Shown: positions 1,190-49,473 of the stretch, piece by piece
Layout: the number at the start of each line of letters is the position of its first letter
Numbering within the stretch: position 1 is the stretch's first letter
NCBI GenBank assembly: GCA_009786455.1
Contig: WQTD01000007.1
Location: forward strand, 1 to 56,116
Reading direction: 5' to 3'
Length of the DNA stretch: 56,116 bases
DNA from: Treponema sp.
GTDB taxonomy: Bacteria; Spirochaetota; Spirochaetia; Treponematales; Breznakiellaceae
Made by a program: the position numbers and the translations under genes
The notes under the pieces: generated by a model
Databases searched by the model: none
Seen by the model: the letters and a program-made list of their open reading frames with translations, nothing else
Told to the model about the DNA's origin: nothing

Positions 1190-1456
1190 TATAAAGAGCT
1201 AATTCTTTATCACATAAGGAATTAGTATAACGTCTAATCCTTAACAGCTTGTTCGAAATTATCTCACACAGCGGCACAGCGAAATGGAGTTAGTTACGAA
1301 CAAAACAACATAAAAAACCGCCATGCCACCGTGTCCGCTGCGCCGCTGTGTGAAAATCCTCAGATAATTTCAATAATGGCAGCTCAATTATTACAGGAAG
1401 TAAGTCAGGACGAATCAGTAAAGCAAAACTGCAAGCCCGCACCCATATAGGGTATG
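1190..1456. repeat. Right arm of the long imperfect inverted repeat
   Basis: This is the inverted counterpart of 88-335, with the same internal palindromes (CACACAGCGG near 1264, CGCCGCTGTGTG near 1341). Beyond the core the two arms keep matching: TTTCAATA and TCAGTAAAGC are adjacent in the left arm but here are separated by exactly 39 bases, 1376-1414. Those 39 bases are identical to 2141-2179 inside the rpn gene. The stretch 1139-1498, between the lipoprotein gene and rpn, holds only this arm and the rpn ribosome-binding site. Confidence 0.8.
1376..1414 (+). repeat. 39-bp exact copy of an internal rpn segment
   Basis: The 39 bases are identical to 2141-2179 and the match breaks at both edges. 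In rpn they are 13 whole codons beginning at the internal ATG (MAAQLLQEVSQDE). Here they interrupt the otherwise continuous repeat arm. No target-site duplication is visible. In this position they open a frame of 24 codons that ends with TAG at 1448-1450 and has no Shine-Dalgarno. Confidence 0.9.
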
Positions 1457-1498
1457 AAAAACATTCAGCATATTAAAAAACCCCAAGGAGACAGGCAG

Positions 1499-2359
1499 AT
1501 GAGTAAATTTCCAATGGACGCGGATATCCTTCCGCCTTCTGACGACCGTATTTTCAAAACGCTTCTGACACACCCTGACGCAAAACAGGTTTTAATTGAC
1601 GTAGTATCAACGGTAATCGAACGAAAAGTCGTTGACGTTCAACTGCGGAATAATGAGGTTCCGCCAATGAATACAGATGAAAAACATGAGCGTTTTGATG
1701 TTAACTGTACCATTGACACAGGCGATCAGGTTGATGTTGAAATGCACTGCTTAAAAAGAGAAGAAATAGGAGAAAAACATACAAATTTTATCAACAAATA
1801 TGTCTACTACCTCACTGATCTCCATTCGTCACAAAAATCCAAAGGAATAGAATATTCCGACTTAGTGAGGACGTACCAGATTACATTCTGTACAACGGCG
1901 GTTTTCCCTGCGCAAGTTGATTATGTCAGCAGATTCTCGCTGAGGACTCAGGACGGCAGACAGCTCACTGATCAAATCAACATGGTAATAATCGAGTTAA
2001 GCAAGTTAAGTGATACTTTAAAAAAGCCAGCAGGTAAATTAACAACGCTTGAAATGTGGGCTGTATTTTTTGGTTACGCATCCGATCCCGTGCACAGAAA
2101 TCTGATTAATGGTATAATTGACGAAAAGGAGGAGATTGACATGGCAGCTCAATTATTACAGGAAGTAAGTCAGGACGAACGTGAAAAAGCCATCCAGAGA
2201 AGCCGGCGAATGGCAGAGACTGACAGGATCTCTGACCTGCTTACCGCCGAGAGAAGAGGTAAAATCGAGGGTATGCAGCAAGAACGTGAAAAAGTCCTCT
2301 CCCTCTTTGAACAGGGTCTCTCTCTGGAAGAAGTAAAACAATACCTTAAAAACAACTGA
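1499..2359 (+). CDS. Rpn family PD-(D/E)XK nuclease / putative transposase
   Basis: The product is 286 residues from the ATG at 1499, chosen because AAGGAG sits just upstream; the frame is open back to 1454, but that ATG lies in repeat DNA without a ribosome-binding site. The N-terminal part has the family pattern: an opening around DDRIFKTLLTH (residues 15-25), then D67 and the VDVEMHC stretch with E81, the PD-(D/E)XK core. The usual E-x-Q reads E-M-H here. Family members are DNA endonucleases first described as recombination-promoting (RpnA of E. coli) and later tied to phage defence. The C-terminal third is charged and helical and ends in a short LSLEEVKQYL-type motif. An internal start at codon 215 is annotated separately. 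It stands alone between the inverted-repeat region and a terminator. Confidence 0.85.
   Translation: MSKFPMDADILPPSDDRIFKTLLTHPDAKQVLIDVVSTVIERKVVDVQLRNNEVPPMNTDEKHERFDVNCTIDTGDQVDVEMHCLKREEIGEKHTNFINKYVYYLTDLHSSQKSKGIEYSDLVRTYQITFCTTAVFPAQVDYVSRFSLRTQDGRQLTDQINMVIIELSKLSDTLKKPAGKLTTLEMWAVFFGYASDPVHRNLINGIIDEKEEIDMAAQLLQEVSQDEREKAIQRSRRMAETDRISDLLTAERRGKIEGMQQEREKVLSLFEQGLSLEEVKQYLKNN
2091..2134 (+). promoter_or_regulatory. Putative internal promoter and Shine-Dalgarno inside rpn
   Basis: A perfect TATAAT at 2113-2118 is preceded by TGCACA (2091-2096, 4 of 6 matches to TTGACA) at 16 bases. The expected transcript start is about 2124-2125, directly before AAAGGAGGAG (2125-2134), which stands 6-8 bases before an in-frame ATG at 2141. 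A strong SD and TATAAT together inside a coding region is unlikely to be chance, but transcription is inferred. Confidence 0.6.
2141..2359 (+). CDS. Possible intragenic small Rpn C-terminal protein (RpnS-like, 72 aa)
   Basis: In-frame initiation at the ATG at 2141 would make a 72-residue protein, MAAQLLQEVSQDE to the rpn stop, rich in Glu, Arg and Gln and predicted helical. It lacks the nuclease core. In enterobacterial Rpn genes a small C-terminal protein made from an internal promoter and start inhibits the full-length toxic nuclease, so an antitoxin role is the natural hypothesis. The evidence here is the TATAAT and AAGGAGG placed correctly in front of it. That it is expressed is inference. 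Confidence 0.55.
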   Translation: MAAQLLQEVSQDEREKAIQRSRRMAETDRISDLLTAERRGKIEGMQQEREKVLSLFEQGLSLEEVKQYLKNN

Positions 2360-2601: not shown

Positions 2602-3957
2602 TTAGAAGTTCCACCTGAAAGTGATGTTTGCTTCGTTGTAGTTGTTTAAATCTTCTATTGCGCCATACGGTTTATAAAGTACATAATGAAGACCAATTCC
2701 GGTTCCCCAGTCGCCTGCTCCGGTTCCTTTGAAGTTCCAGAGAATGCCTGGTACAAATCTCCAGCCAAATCCTTCCTCGCCGAACATGAAATCAGAAGCG
2801 ACATTTACTTGTAAATATGCAGGAAGTACATTGAACCATACGCTCGGAGCAACACCGACGATTCCGCCGTTTCCGGCGTCTGACCTTGCCTGAATTTCCG
2901 CATCAAAGTAATACCCTGCTTTAATGGAAACGCCGAATACGTCAGCGCCATAATTCAGACTTGCGCCAAATACAGCTTTTGTGTCCAGGATGGTATTGGT
3001 ATCTTCTTCCTTAAATACACCAGCGAAACTCAAGCCAGCGCTAATTGCGTCTGTGAAAGCCCAATTTAAGCCGACATAAGCGCCGAATTTATCAACATTG
3101 AACTGAGCTGCGACCTCAATTGGATAGAAATCAAATTTCATACCAAGGATTAATGTTGACAGAACATCATTAACTAGATCAAATTCATTAGGTCTATATC
3201 CAGCATCATTTTTATCCATGGCATTGCGTCCGTCTTCCCAGAAAAAGCGAGTACCTGTATTATCAGGGGTACTTCTGAGCATTGCACCGAAGCTGATACC
3301 GGAGAAGTTAAAATTAGCCATAATACCGCTCCTGCAGCAGAAATTCGCCCAAACATGTGATTGTTCTTTAATTGGGAATGAACCCGGAGTACCAGAATCA
3401 CCCTGGAAATCGAAAGTACCCCATTCATTATACTTTGTTCCGCCAATATATTTATCACCGCGGAAAATGCCAAATGACATATCAGATCTCCAAGGATCGG
3501 AAATCCAGTTATTTACACCTACTCTCAAGTCTACCAAACCATTAAGCATTTTGTAATTGCCCCATAGCTCTAAATCATTCCATATGCTAATTGCACCATC
3601 GTTAGCAGTATTAAAGAGCGTTGACAGTAAATATACACGACCACCGAAGCCATAGTTTTCACCATAATACGACACGGTAGCTCTAAGAGCATCCCAGGTT
3701 CTGAATAATAAACCAGCATTAAATCCTTCATTACCGTATTTTAATTCTACAGCTGCCCTGTTTACGCCGCCATCATCACCCCATGCAGCAAAATCCAATG
3801 CGTTAAACCCTGGTCCATCTGTTTCAGGAAACTGACCCGCATTGTTAAAATCCATTGTCGCGCCAAGTTCCACCTTACCGCCAAGATTCCAGTTACCCTG
3901 TGCGAAAACTCCTCCTGCTACCGCAAGGATTAATAAAACCACGAGAATTTTTTTCAT
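2602..3957 (-). CDS. Outer-membrane beta-barrel-like protein, paralogue 1
   Basis: The product is 451 residues with a clear signal peptide (MKKILVVLLILAVAGGVFAQ, cleavage likely after residue 19). The mature part is Gly/aromatic-rich with alternating hydrophobic strands and ends ANITFRWNF, a terminal aromatic beta-strand suited to barrel insertion. That points to a porin-like outer-membrane protein, though no named family is assigned. The start is fixed by a TCCTCCT complement (GGAGG) at 3966-3972. It is closely similar to the gene at 4636-5973: signal peptide, N- and C-terminal strands are nearly identical and internal stretches, probably loops, differ. The pair likely arose by tandem duplication; each copy has its own terminator and leader. 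Confidence 0.75.
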   Translation of the reverse strand: MKKILVVLLILAVAGGVFAQGNWNLGGKVELGATMDFNNAGQFPETDGPGFNALDFAAWGDDGGVNRAAVELKYGNEGFNAGLLFRTWDALRATVSYYGENYGFGGRVYLLSTLFNTANDGAISIWNDLELWGNYKMLNGLVDLRVGVNNWISDPWRSDMSFGIFRGDKYIGGTKYNEWGTFDFQGDSGTPGSFPIKEQSHVWANFCCRSGIMANFNFSGISFGAMLRSTPDNTGTRFFWEDGRNAMDKNDAGYRPNEFDLVNDVLSTLILGMKFDFYPIEVAAQFNVDKFGAYVGLNWAFTDAISAGLSFAGVFKEEDTNTILDTKAVFGASLNYGADVFGVSIKAGYYFDAEIQARSDAGNGGIVGVAPSVWFNVLPAYLQVNVASDFMFGEEGFGWRFVPGILWNFKGTGAGDWGTGIGLHYVLYKPYGAIEDLNNYNEANITFRWNF

Positions 3958-4635: not shown

Positions 4636-5973
4636 TTAGAAGTTCCACCTGAAAGTGATGTTTGCTTCGTTGTAGTTGTCGGAATCTAACTGTGCGCCAT
4701 ACGGTTTGAAAAGCGCATAGTGGAGACCAATACCTGTTGACCAGTCGCCAGCTCCGGTTCCTTTGAAGTTCCAGAGAATGCCTGGTACAAATCTCCAGCC
4801 AAATCCTTCGTCGCCGAACATGAAATCAGAAGCGACATTCACCTGTAAGTGTGACGGAATTACATTGAACCATACGCTTGGTGCAATACCGACGATCCCG
4901 CCGTTTCCGGTTTCTGATGTTTCCTGAATGTTCGCATCGAAGTAGTATCCTGCCTTGAGGGCAACGCCGAATACGTCAGCGGAATAATTCAAACTGGCAC
5001 CGAATACAGCCAACGTGTCCTGAATGTCATTGGTATCCAATTCCTTAAATGTGCCGAGGAAGCTCAAGCCTGCGCTGATTGCGTCTGTGAATGTCCAATT
5101 TAAACCGACATAAGCGCCGAATTTTTCAACATTGAACTGAGCTGCGACCTGGATCGGATAGAAATCAAATTTCATACCGAGGATTAATGTTGACAAAACA
5201 CCTTCAATCAAATCAAGCTCATTATGGGAATTATCGCCTTCCTTGTCTGATTTACTATCCCAGAAAAACGGAACACCACCACCCCAGTTTTCAGGAGTGC
5301 TTCTGAGCATAGCGCCGAAACTGATACCGCTAAAGTTAAAATTAGCCATTATACCGCTTCTGCAGCAGAGATTCGCCCAAATATGTGACTGCTCTTTTAT
5401 TGGATAAGAACCGGGAGAACCGGAATCACCCTGTAAATCAAAACTACCCCATCTGTTATATTTATTTCCGCTAATAAATTTATCTCCGCGGAAAATACCA
5501 AATGATAAGTCAGAAGACCAAGGATCCGAAATCCATTTGTTTACGCCAACCAATAAGTCGACCATGCCGTTAAGCATTGAATAATTACCCCACGCTTGTA
5601 ATTCATTACCTACACCACCAGACCAATTGTATAAAAACGCATTGAATAAGTGTCCCTGAGCTCCTAAGCTGTAATTATCACCATAATACGCAATGTCTCC
5701 AATAATTTGGTTGAAGGTTGAAAATTTTAAACCGGCTGAAAACCCATCACGACCGTATGACAATCCCAACTGCGCCCTGTTTACGCCGCCGTCATCACCC
5801 CATTTCGCAAAATCTTTAGCATTGAACCCTGGACGATCTCCCTCAAACTGACCTGCATTGTTAAAATCCATTGTTGCGCCAAGTTCTACTAAACCGCTAA
5901 GACTCCAGTTACCCTGTGCGAAAACTCCTCCTGCTACCGCAAGGATTAATAAAACCACGAGAATTTTTTTCAT
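4636..5973 (-). CDS. Outer-membrane beta-barrel-like protein, paralogue 2
   Basis: The product is 445 residues from the ATG at 5973, preceded by a GGAGG complement at 5982-5988; the frame runs further upstream but only through the leader. The signal peptide equals that of paralogue 1 (MKKILVVLLILAVAGGVFAQ). The mature protein starts GNWSLSGLVELGATMDF and ends ANITFRWNF. Both paralogues share the central KEQSH(V/I)WAN.CCRSGIMANF region, which contains an adjacent Cys pair, unusual for a barrel. Differences from paralogue 1 concentrate between conserved strands. An outer-membrane pore or adhesin role is inferred from this pattern only. Confidence 0.75.
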   Translation of the reverse strand: MKKILVVLLILAVAGGVFAQGNWSLSGLVELGATMDFNNAGQFEGDRPGFNAKDFAKWGDDGGVNRAQLGLSYGRDGFSAGLKFSTFNQIIGDIAYYGDNYSLGAQGHLFNAFLYNWSGGVGNELQAWGNYSMLNGMVDLLVGVNKWISDPWSSDLSFGIFRGDKFISGNKYNRWGSFDLQGDSGSPGSYPIKEQSHIWANLCCRSGIMANFNFSGISFGAMLRSTPENWGGGVPFFWDSKSDKEGDNSHNELDLIEGVLSTLILGMKFDFYPIQVAAQFNVEKFGAYVGLNWTFTDAISAGLSFLGTFKELDTNDIQDTLAVFGASLNYSADVFGVALKAGYYFDANIQETSETGNGGIVGIAPSVWFNVIPSHLQVNVASDFMFGDEGFGWRFVPGILWNFKGTGAGDWSTGIGLHYALFKPYGAQLDSDNYNEANITFRWNF

Positions 5974-6019
5974 TCTTGTAATCCTCCTATATTTGACAAG
6001 GGGTAACAACCTACGGTTA
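5974..6019 (-). promoter_or_regulatory. Conserved 5' leader of outer-membrane paralogue 2
   Basis: This is the same leader as at 3958-4003, with one substitution. Upstream (6020-6060) is a run of TTAATTAATTAAA-type AT-rich sequence that could hold the promoter, but no clear -35/-10 pair is seen. Confidence 0.55.
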
Positions 6020-6173
6020 CTTTAATTATTTAATTAATTAAAAAAATCCGATAATTCATAAGTGCATAAATCATTACAGGATAAAGAATTATTATTTTTA
6101 TAGAATATATTTGTTTATTTGGTTTTGGGCTATGTAAGCAGTTGTGTTTGCATTAAGCCGTCAGGAGGACATA

Positions 6174-7340
6174 ATGAGATACAAAGAATTATTTACGATT
6201 TATCCAAGAAAATTAAAAACGGTAACAGTTTATTACTACCAATGTTACGACAGCGGCGGAAAAAGAATTTGCGGTCATTCAACAGGACAACGCACAAAAA
6301 CCGCCGCCAAATTATATTGCATGGAATTATTCAGGAAAGGCAAATTAATTCCAAGTGATAAGCCTGTCATTTTTGAGGAATTCGCCAAAGGCTGGTTTGA
6401 TATTAATACATGTAAATATCTTGAATGGCGGCAGATGCAAAACCCTCTCGCGTTATCAACAATCGATCATTACAAAACCGCTCTTGATATACAAATCAAA
6501 CCATACTTCGGTAAAATGAAAATTTCTTCCATCACACCGGAAATAGTTCAGAAATGGATCCTGAAACTTTCACATGACGGATATAATAATTCTTCGATCA
6601 ATATGAAAATGGCAACATTGAAAGTAATGATGAAGGAAGCTTTTCGCCTTAAACTTATTCCGACCAACCCGATGGATAAAATAAAAAAATTAAAATTTGA
6701 CAACAAGGAAGTAAAAATTCTCAAGAATGACGAGGTGCAAAAATTGTTTCCGTCTGACTGGAAGGAAATCTGGAACAGTTATGAAGTATACCTGATTAAT
6801 AAACTGGCGGCTTTTACAGGCATGAGGTTAAGCGAGATTATCGGTCTGCAGGGCGAGCATGTTCATGAAGATCATATCCATGTGTGCGTACAATATTCAA
6901 AAAAGTACAAAATTATGCCGCTTAAAACAAAAGATTCAAGAAATATCCCCATCACAACAGCCCTTTACAGCGAACTTTCGGTATTAATCAATAAACACGG
7001 CAGCGGTTTTTTATTTACAAAATACGCCGGCATAGTTCCGATTACGCCCAACAGAATATACAGGGAAACAAAAAAGGCGTTTGACAGAATCGGCATTAAC
7101 AGCGAAGAACGCAAAAAACGCGGACTTGTTCTGCATCACTGGCGTCATTTTTTAAATACCGCGCTTTTAATGGCGAATGTGAATACCCTGAAAGTGCAAA
7201 AAGTAACAGGGCACAAAACCATGTCCATGACAAAGCATTATGCCCACTTTGACAGCCGTGATTTTACGGAAGTGCTGGATGTTCAGAACAATTTGATAGC
7301 GGAAAGTAATAATTCTGCTGTCATATCTGCTGTCACTTGA
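6174..7340 (+). CDS. Tyrosine recombinase / integrase
   Basis: The product is 388 residues from the ATG at 6174, which has AGGAGG at 6162-6167; earlier in-frame ATGs lack one. The N-terminal 55 residues resemble an arm-binding domain, residues about 60-170 the SAM-like core-binding domain, and the rest the catalytic domain. R218 (TGMRLSEI), H321-x-x-R324 (HHWRH), H347 (TGHKTMS) and the nucleophile Y356 (HYAH) are present, so it should be active. This fits an integrase of a genomic island or prophage, yet no phage structural genes or excisionase accompany it. It is divergent from the outer-membrane genes, and its 3' end overlaps a cluster of short direct repeats. Confidence 0.9.
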   Translation: MRYKELFTIYPRKLKTVTVYYYQCYDSGGKRICGHSTGQRTKTAAKLYCMELFRKGKLIPSDKPVIFEEFAKGWFDINTCKYLEWRQMQNPLALSTIDHYKTALDIQIKPYFGKMKISSITPEIVQKWILKLSHDGYNNSSINMKMATLKVMMKEAFRLKLIPTNPMDKIKKLKFDNKEVKILKNDEVQKLFPSDWKEIWNSYEVYLINKLAAFTGMRLSEIIGLQGEHVHEDHIHVCVQYSKKYKIMPLKTKDSRNIPITTALYSELSVLINKHGSGFLFTKYAGIVPITPNRIYRETKKAFDRIGINSEERKKRGLVLHHWRHFLNTALLMANVNTLKVQKVTGHKTMSMTKHYAHFDSRDFTEVLDVQNNLIAESNNSAVISAVT

Positions 7341-17141: not shown

Positions 17142-17549
17142 ATGGCTGATATTATGGACACATTAATGCAGGAAGCGCAAAAAATTTCCAGTTCCGCTTA
17201 TGCTCCTTATTCAAAGTTCCGCGTCGGAGCGGCTCTGTTATGCGAAGACGGAACAATTGTAAAGGGCGTTAATGTGGAAAACCGTTCATTTGGATTAACC
17301 ACCTGTGCGGAAAGGAATGCCGTAACCGCGGCTGTAATGATGGGGCATCGTAAATTCACCGCGCTTGCAATCTCTACGCCGGATTCGGCGGAACCTGTGG
17401 GTCCATGCGGCGCATGCCGTCAGGTCTTGGGTGAATTTATGAAAGCGGACGCTCCTGTTCGTTTTGCAGGAAGCGGACCGCAGCAGGTCAATACGACAAT
17501 CGGCAGTCTCCTTCCCATGGATTCCCTTCATGAACTGCGTAATAAATAG
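17142..17549 (+). CDS. cdd: Cytidine deaminase
   Basis: The product is 135 residues from the ATG at 17142, which has GGGAGG at the right distance; the longer frame overlaps the divergent gene and is not supported. SAYAPYSKFRVGAAL, ENRSFGLTTCAERNAV with the catalytic Glu in CAE, and GPCGACRQ with the two zinc cysteines are all present. The enzyme deaminates cytidine and deoxycytidine to uridine forms in pyrimidine salvage and is a homotetramer in this size class. The C-terminus (GSLLPMDSLHEL) has the usual LLP motif. Confidence 0.95.
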   Translation: MADIMDTLMQEAQKISSSAYAPYSKFRVGAALLCEDGTIVKGVNVENRSFGLTTCAERNAVTAAVMMGHRKFTALAISTPDSAEPVGPCGACRQVLGEFMKADAPVRFAGSGPQQVNTTIGSLLPMDSLHELRNK

Positions 17550-48568: not shown

Positions 48569-49473
48569 TTATCTCCCTCATAAAACACCCATTCCCTGGA
48601 TGTTATAAATATAATCGCTGTAAAAACCGCGACAATTATAAAAAATATAAATGATATTGCGCTGGCATAGCCAAGCTGACCTTCAATAAAGGCGTTGCGG
48701 TACATGAGAAATGTCATAAACATGGATGAGTTTCCGGGACCACCGCGGGTTAATGCGAGCGCAGGCGTTACAACCTGCATATTGGTTACTATAGCCATTA
48801 ATAAATTATAAAAAATTATCGGCGACATGCCCGGAATGGTAACATGCAAAAATCTCTGCCATGAACTGGCACCGTCAATCTCCGCGGCTTCGTAATAAAC
48901 GCGGGGAACATTCTGCAATCCGGCAAGGAATATAACAATAAGATTTCCGGACAGCCATACTGCGATTATTGCAAGCGAAGGCACTACAAATCTTGTATCC
49001 GCGATAAAATGCACTGTATCAATATTTAATACGCTTAAAATAAAATTAAACAAACCGAAATTGCTGTCGTAAAGCCATGACCATCCTATATATACAGCAA
49101 CCGCAGGCAATACATAAGGAACATAAAAAACAGCGCGGAAAAACCCTCTGGCAGGTATCTTTCGGTTAAGAAGCATTGCCACAGCCAGCGAATAAATCAT
49201 GGAACCGATAACGGAAATGAAAGTAAAATACGCCGTTACCTTAATTGAATCAACAAAAAAATGATCTTCTGTAAAAAGACGTATATAATTTTCCAATCCA
49301 TTAAAAATTGGTTCAGGAGCGCCGGCTCTCCATCTGGAAAAACTTAATGCCAATACCACAAGAAGAGGACCGTAAGTCAGAATTGTAAGACCAAGAAACG
49401 CCGGTATCAGAAAAAAATACGCGGCGCGGGCTTCCTGAGCCGCTGCTCTGGATATAACCTGCATTTTCTTCAT
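48565..49473 (-). CDS. Sugar ABC permease, MalF type
   Basis: The product is 302 residues from the ATG at 49473, which has GGAG at the right distance; the upstream ATG at 49485 overlaps that site. Six helices, with EAA loop YEAAEIDGASSWQRFLHVTI. Likely to pair with the permease that follows and with the binding protein at 49525. Confidence 0.9.
   Translation of the reverse strand: MKKMQVISRAAAQEARAAYFFLIPAFLGLTILTYGPLLVVLALSFSRWRAGAPEPIFNGLENYIRLFTEDHFFVDSIKVTAYFTFISVIGSMIYSLAVAMLLNRKIPARGFFRAVFYVPYVLPAVAVYIGWSWLYDSNFGLFNFILSVLNIDTVHFIADTRFVVPSLAIIAVWLSGNLIVIFLAGLQNVPRVYYEAAEIDGASSWQRFLHVTIPGMSPIIFYNLLMAIVTNMQVVTPALALTRGGPGNSSMFMTFLMYRNAFIEGQLGYASAISFIFFIIVAVFTAIIFITSREWVFYEGDK

Follow-up and report, generated by a model that had tools for sequence, protein, structure and literature searches.

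The closest described systems are the Rpn nucleases of Escherichia coli, in which a full-length protein, RpnL, and a small C-terminal protein, RpnS, come from a single gene. Each of the five E. coli rpn genes contains an internal start as well as an internal transcription start (Zhong et al. 2023, PMC10327210), and in E. coli rpnA an AAGGAG precedes M244, the same layout as in the spirochaete gene described here. When the Clostridioides difficile rpn gene is expressed in E. coli, an RpnS is seen which is lost on mutating the predicted ribosome-binding site (RBS) and internal start; variation of RpnS repeats has been reported in Leptospira interrogans, itself a spirochaete, and COG5464 has been found in 34 bacterial phyla (PMC10327210). 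An earlier note on this DNA proposed an intragenic antitoxin within an rpn gene, with the enterobacterial genes as precedent. The note also expected a spirochaete case to carry the design far outside its known range, which was overstated in view of the 34 phyla, the C. difficile RpnS and Leptospira. The design itself is already known, and what is new, on our comparison of homologous genes, is evidence of selection on the internal signals across spirochaetes; no later paper on RpnS in spirochaetes turned up in literature searches.

The window, 56,116 nucleotides long, is contig C7 of an 85-contig, 2.35 Mb Treponema sp. genome. The nearest named relatives of this genome are the Treponema sp. MAGs Pal332_bin4, Emb289P3bin69 and Co191P3bin16, which we take from their names to be termite-gut isolates. 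The features of the rpn locus are collected in Table 1. The longest open reading frame of rpnL begins at 1454; the true start is probably the ATG at 1499, which is kept together with its Shine–Dalgarno sequence (SD) in both full rpn paralogues of the same genome (L002 and L003, 81-83% identity). RpnL matches the family models PF12784 (E = 4.3e-30, 105.6 bits; curated cut-off 27.4) and TIGR01784 (E = 5.4e-21, 75.6 bits; curated cut-off 52.1). Its residues D16, D67 and E81 (286-aa numbering), which correspond to D11, D63 and E82 of RpnA, are invariant in an alignment of 16 homologues. The catalytic residues of RpnA are D11, D63, E82 and Q84 (PMC5350276), and the position of Q84 is occupied by a histidine (H83) in RpnL and most of its close homologues and by a glutamine in the L021 group. 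Since the Q84A mutant of RpnA still lowered viability, whereas Q84K lost all phenotypes (PMC5350276), the activity of RpnL with a histidine at this position is not predictable from the RpnA data, and RpnL is not certain to be an active nuclease. The AlphaFold2 model of RpnL, built from four sequences, is poor (mean pLDDT of 51.6). Upstream of the gene, the leader element reads TTTCRGTCAAGC...CCATATATAG in relatives and is flanked by DNA that diverges in the aligned upstream regions of close homologues; it is probably the promoter or operator of rpnL, a function that we infer.

Table 1. Features of the rpn locus (window coordinates)
Feature	Position	Strand	Remarks
Leader element TCAGTAAAGC...GCACCCATATAGGG	1415-1455	+	About 45 bp, upstream of rpnL; kept in close homologues across genomes
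SD of rpnL, AAGGAG	1485-1490	+	8 nt before ATG 1499; -8.3 kcal/mol
rpnL	1499-2359	+	Full-length Rpn-family PD-(D/E)XK nuclease, 286 aa from ATG 1499
-35-like TGCACA (weak, 4/6)	2091-2096	+	16-base spacer to TATAAT
Extended -10 TGGTATAAT of the proposed internal promoter	2110-2118	+	8/8 match in 16/16 close homologues
TATAAT	2113-2118	+	Core of the extended -10 TGGTATAAT
Internal SD AAAGGAGGAG	2125-2134	+	6 nt before ATG 2141; -12.8 kcal/mol
rpnS, proposed antitoxin	2141-2359	+	In-frame internal ORF, start ATG 2141, stop at 2359; 72 aa, predicted all-helical

The positions that the earlier note gave for the internal elements (4/6 -35, spacer, TATAAT, SD, ATG and length of the product) are all exact. 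Homologues were searched for in 60 genomes, with matches in 32. In nearly all close homologues the codon matching ATG 2141 is likewise an ATG and has GGAGG, or a sequence close to it, in front; its methionine is invariant in the 16-homologue alignment, which reaches down to 28% identity. In a divergent subgroup (L030, L032, L034, L036, L071, L075 and L076) the methionine stands one codon upstream, still after the SD, the junction reading EEGI-M-RAE versus EEGIA-M-A elsewhere, a pattern that fits conservation of the start better than conservation of the residue. The apparent absence of this methionine from other spirochaete families, judged from the exact M230 column of a phylum-wide alignment, was overturned by a mechanical search for the best SD and ATG, which places a GGAGG and ATG 10-14 residues upstream of that column, still at the junction of nuclease and tail. 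The best C-terminal methionine has an SD of -8.5 kcal/mol or below in 12/12 close homologues (one per genome), compared with 1/75 other internal methionines; the corresponding values are 19/23 and 2/125 for distant genes of the same genus, and 13/17 and 4/86 for genes of other spirochaete families with a candidate methionine. This methionine was picked by energy and not by hand, which entails some bias towards the best one, but not of these margins. The strong internal SD is therefore kept in all the close and most of the other genes counted, so that the finding named in the earlier note as counting against an internal start, homologues without the SD/ATG, does not hold. To judge from this conservation, it is almost certain that a small C-terminal protein is made from the second start.

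We also asked whether tail-only loci might be stand-alone rpnS genes comparable to E. coli ypaA, but rejected this reading. Away from contig ends, five of these loci (L037, L054, L058, L060 and L079) keep the SD, start and frame, and two (L055 and L078) are decayed; they are weak evidence for stand-alone rpnS genes because N-terminal-only remnants are about equally common.

We may wonder at this stage whether the SD, the ATG and TATAAT are simply by-products of the protein sequence (NDII...KEEI.MA), carrying no signal. A GGAG arises easily from KEE codons, and per-gene codon shuffling in close homologues is only modestly significant (p of 0.003-0.37). In the window rpn gene itself, synonymous-codon shuffling gives p = 0.01 for the internal SD and p = 0.04 for the extended -10. 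A generic promoter scan alone is uninformative, because it returns 18 promoter-like sites in 5 kb versus 13.6 expected. The arrangement TATAAT-N6-18-GGAGG-N4-9-ATG, on the other hand, occurs three times in the 56 kb window versus 0.01 times in shuffles, and the other two occurrences are genuine gene starts, those of the ORFs at 17142 and 53204 (going by their translations, presumably a cytidine deaminase-like and an ABC permease-like protein, respectively). Among 344 internal in-frame ATGs in 37 other genes of the window, none reaches the anti-SD energy of ATG 2141 and four reach -8.5 kcal/mol. This energy is stronger than that of rpnL's own start, a difference that predicts an excess of RpnS. 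Moreover, the GAG codon of E226 (P0001 numbering), which lies in the SD, is invariant wherever a glutamate is present, although only 32% of the Glu codons of these genes are GAG. Together with the shifted methionine that keeps its SD, the other families that reach the same design through different residues, and a synonymous constraint that peaks exactly over the stretch from the -10 to early rpnS, these observations make a mere by-product very unlikely.

Indeed, in the scan for synonymous conservation the top 14 of 207-241 nine-codon windows all fall within codons 212-244 (numbered one higher than in P0001), which hold the -10, the SD, the start and the first rpnS codons. The Asn, Asp/Gly and Ile codons that spell aaTGNTATAat are 100% synonymously identical in 11 genomes, compared with about 50% expected; ATA accounts for 38% of Ile codons in these genes. 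When the best window is sought at any position by look-elsewhere permutation, p is 0.09, 0.19 and 0.037 for windows of 9, 15 and 25 codons, respectively; the test errs on the side of caution for a region named beforehand but is made on non-independent homologues. Every one of the 16 intact genes in the closest clade has the extended -10 (L013 and L040 were left out of these extended -10 and synonymous counts, as the genes carry stops and their values are misplaced). Neither the L021/L043-045 group nor the distant homologues keep it, which suggests that the internal promoter is clade-specific, whereas the internal start is general, and makes the promoter the less certain of the two. The -35-like hexamer is not conserved among homologues and was given no weight.

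These data bear on whether the internal RBS alone is used, RpnS being translated off the full-length mRNA and TATAAT being coding sequence devoid of promoter activity. Such an arrangement would fit the distant homologues, which keep the SD and ATG without the -10, as well as the weak -35 and the shortness of the predicted leader (some 16 nt), which would begin with the SD. It would leave unexplained the synonymous invariance of the three codons spelling the -10, and it would depart from E. coli, in which every rpn gene has an internal transcription start (PMC10327210). We regard it as possible but doubtful, and RpnS is probably fed as well by a short transcript that starts from the extended -10 within the gene.

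The AlphaFold2 model of the 72-aa RpnS (mean pLDDT of 90.5) is all-helical, with helices at 2-57 and 62-71, that is, two helices versus the three-helix bundle of 7TH0. When a profile of Treponema Rpn tails was compared with the PDB, E. coli RpnA_S (7TH0) was the only significant natural match (E = 1.8e-5); 8vd6, a repeat protein that looks designed, scores above it. A tail profile also matches the RpnA_S sequence, at 34 bits. By this profile comparison, Treponema Rpn tails are homologous to RpnA_S. For the window's own tail, a shorter variant of the QGLSLEEI type without the TGL motif, the homology is indirect, the match being obtained only through relatives with TGL tails.

A conserved start is silent on inhibition, and the C-terminal protein could be a structural subunit or assembly partner rather than an inhibitor, in the manner of Cas11d made from within cas10d, which has been cited as a precedent for complementary function (PMC10327210). 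The tail is predicted as a long helix and could assemble RpnL. Against this, RpnS inhibits in every characterised Rpn case (RpnA, RpnB and RpnP2, with repeat specificity in RpnC; PMC10327210), and the tails studied here have both homology and repeat variation in common with RpnA_S; a purely structural role therefore seems improbable. By analogy with RpnA, RpnB, RpnP2 and RpnC, RpnS probably restrains the RpnL toxin.

Our preferred reading, to which we give a probability of roughly 0.76, is that the window gene is a spirochaetal RpnL/RpnS toxin–antitoxin gene-within-gene in which RpnS holds the nuclease inactive. The full-length RpnL would be a PD-(D/E)XK endonuclease that ends in a helical tail, and the internal RBS and ATG would make the tail alone, as RpnS. 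RpnS would then pair with the tail of RpnL, which is identical to it, and keep the nuclease inactive until a trigger such as phage infection releases it. PADLOC gave no significant match for an anti-phage defence system, and no relative encoded on viral contigs was found with either query. The reading of an intragenic RpnS, the putative antitoxin proposed previously, is well supported by comparison: the SD and start are conserved, these and the -10 are under synonymous constraint, the tails are homologous to RpnA_S, and they vary by 4-residue repeats as described below.

The tails vary in length. Compared with the window gene, that of L002 is longer by 24 nt and that of L003 by 12 nt, and 12-nt arrays are found in the tails of L002 and L043; on these sequences, the variation in L002, L003 and L043 is the 4-residue hypervariability described by Zhong et al. 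Coil-type Rpn tails also occur, and differ by 7 residues between copies within the same genome (L018/L046, L015/L042 and L049/L050); in that of L048 a 21-nt unit is repeated about six times, versus the 12-nt units of the other tails. This second, coiled-coil tail type varying by 7 residues is possibly new. In L051 and L053, both from one genome and both at contig ends, the rpn ends are 98-100% identical through the end of the rpnS core and then continue into unrelated tails, which suggests tail swapping. Tentatively, and with considerable reserve, Treponema antitoxin tails might be exchangeable modules, either RpnA_S-like (4-residue/12-nt units) or coiled-coil (heptad, 7-residue/21-nt units), each with its own specificity code and expressed from the conserved internal start (plus the internal promoter in the closest clade), so that toxin and antitoxin would change partner specificity jointly through slippage of repeat units or tail swapping.

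The surroundings of the rpn loci are also rich in repeats. Just upstream of the rpnL leader element, positions 1376-1414 are an exact 39-nt copy of 2141-2179, the first 13 codons of rpnS from its ATG. The segment is absent from an inverted copy of the surroundings (the reverse complement of approximately 86-150), where TTTCAATA directly adjoins TCAGTAAAGC, so that it looks like a precise templated insertion; it may also be an assembly error. Next to the three rpn loci of this genome, and nowhere else in it, lie copies of a dispersed repeat of some 120 bp that has inverted ends (CACACAGCGGC...GCCGCTGTGTG): at 1240-1375 and, inverted, at 175-280 in the window; at 48643-48756 and 49752-49868 on contig C13, as direct copies flanking the rpn gene; and at 70982-71075 and 71924-72021 on contig C9. 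Between two such copies, L003 2700-3362 holds a VapBC-like toxin–antitoxin pair, recognised by eye and with an apparently broken toxin frame, and a second, detached rpn tail fragment. Finally, it should be noted that a phage-type integrase gene (PF00589) lies at 6144-7340 of the window, 4 kb downstream of rpn, and that the interval contains tandem paralogous genes with signal-peptide-like N-termini (2602-3957, which has no Pfam match, and 4636-6009).

PF12784-type Rpn genes are present in 82 of the 247 sampled spirochaete genomes, often in ten or more copies. If the preferred reading is true, these genes are likely to encode self-inhibited nucleases and not transposases, as they are commonly annotated, and each would encode a second protein missed by gene finders. 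RpnS starts could then be predicted from sequence, by the conserved internal -10, SD and start, with no need for ribosome profiling, and with so many tail variants in nature the relation between repeat number and toxin–antitoxin specificity would be directly testable.

Compared with known systems, the gene belongs to the same protein family as TIGR01784 (T_den_put_tspse; NCBIfam description 'Rpn family recombination-promoting nuclease/putative transposase'), a family model that says nothing about an internal start; the C. difficile rpn gene is that of a Firmicute. The closest likeness is to E. coli RpnL/RpnS (RpnA-E and RpnP2; 7TH0), with which it shares a PD-(D/E)XK gene containing an internal SD and start in frame, a small C-terminal protein that is helical (by prediction here), a putative internal promoter signal (here in the closest clade), 4-residue (12-nt) tail repeats and a C-terminal domain that is homologous at the profile level. 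The two differ in that the nuclease domain is PF12784 (PDDEXK_2) here and YhgA-like PF04754 in E. coli, that the position of the catalytic Q84 holds a histidine, and that RpnS begins here at the nuclease/tail junction and has 72 residues versus 49. Some relatives, moreover, carry coiled-coil tails with 21-nt (heptad) repeats, unlike the E. coli proteins.
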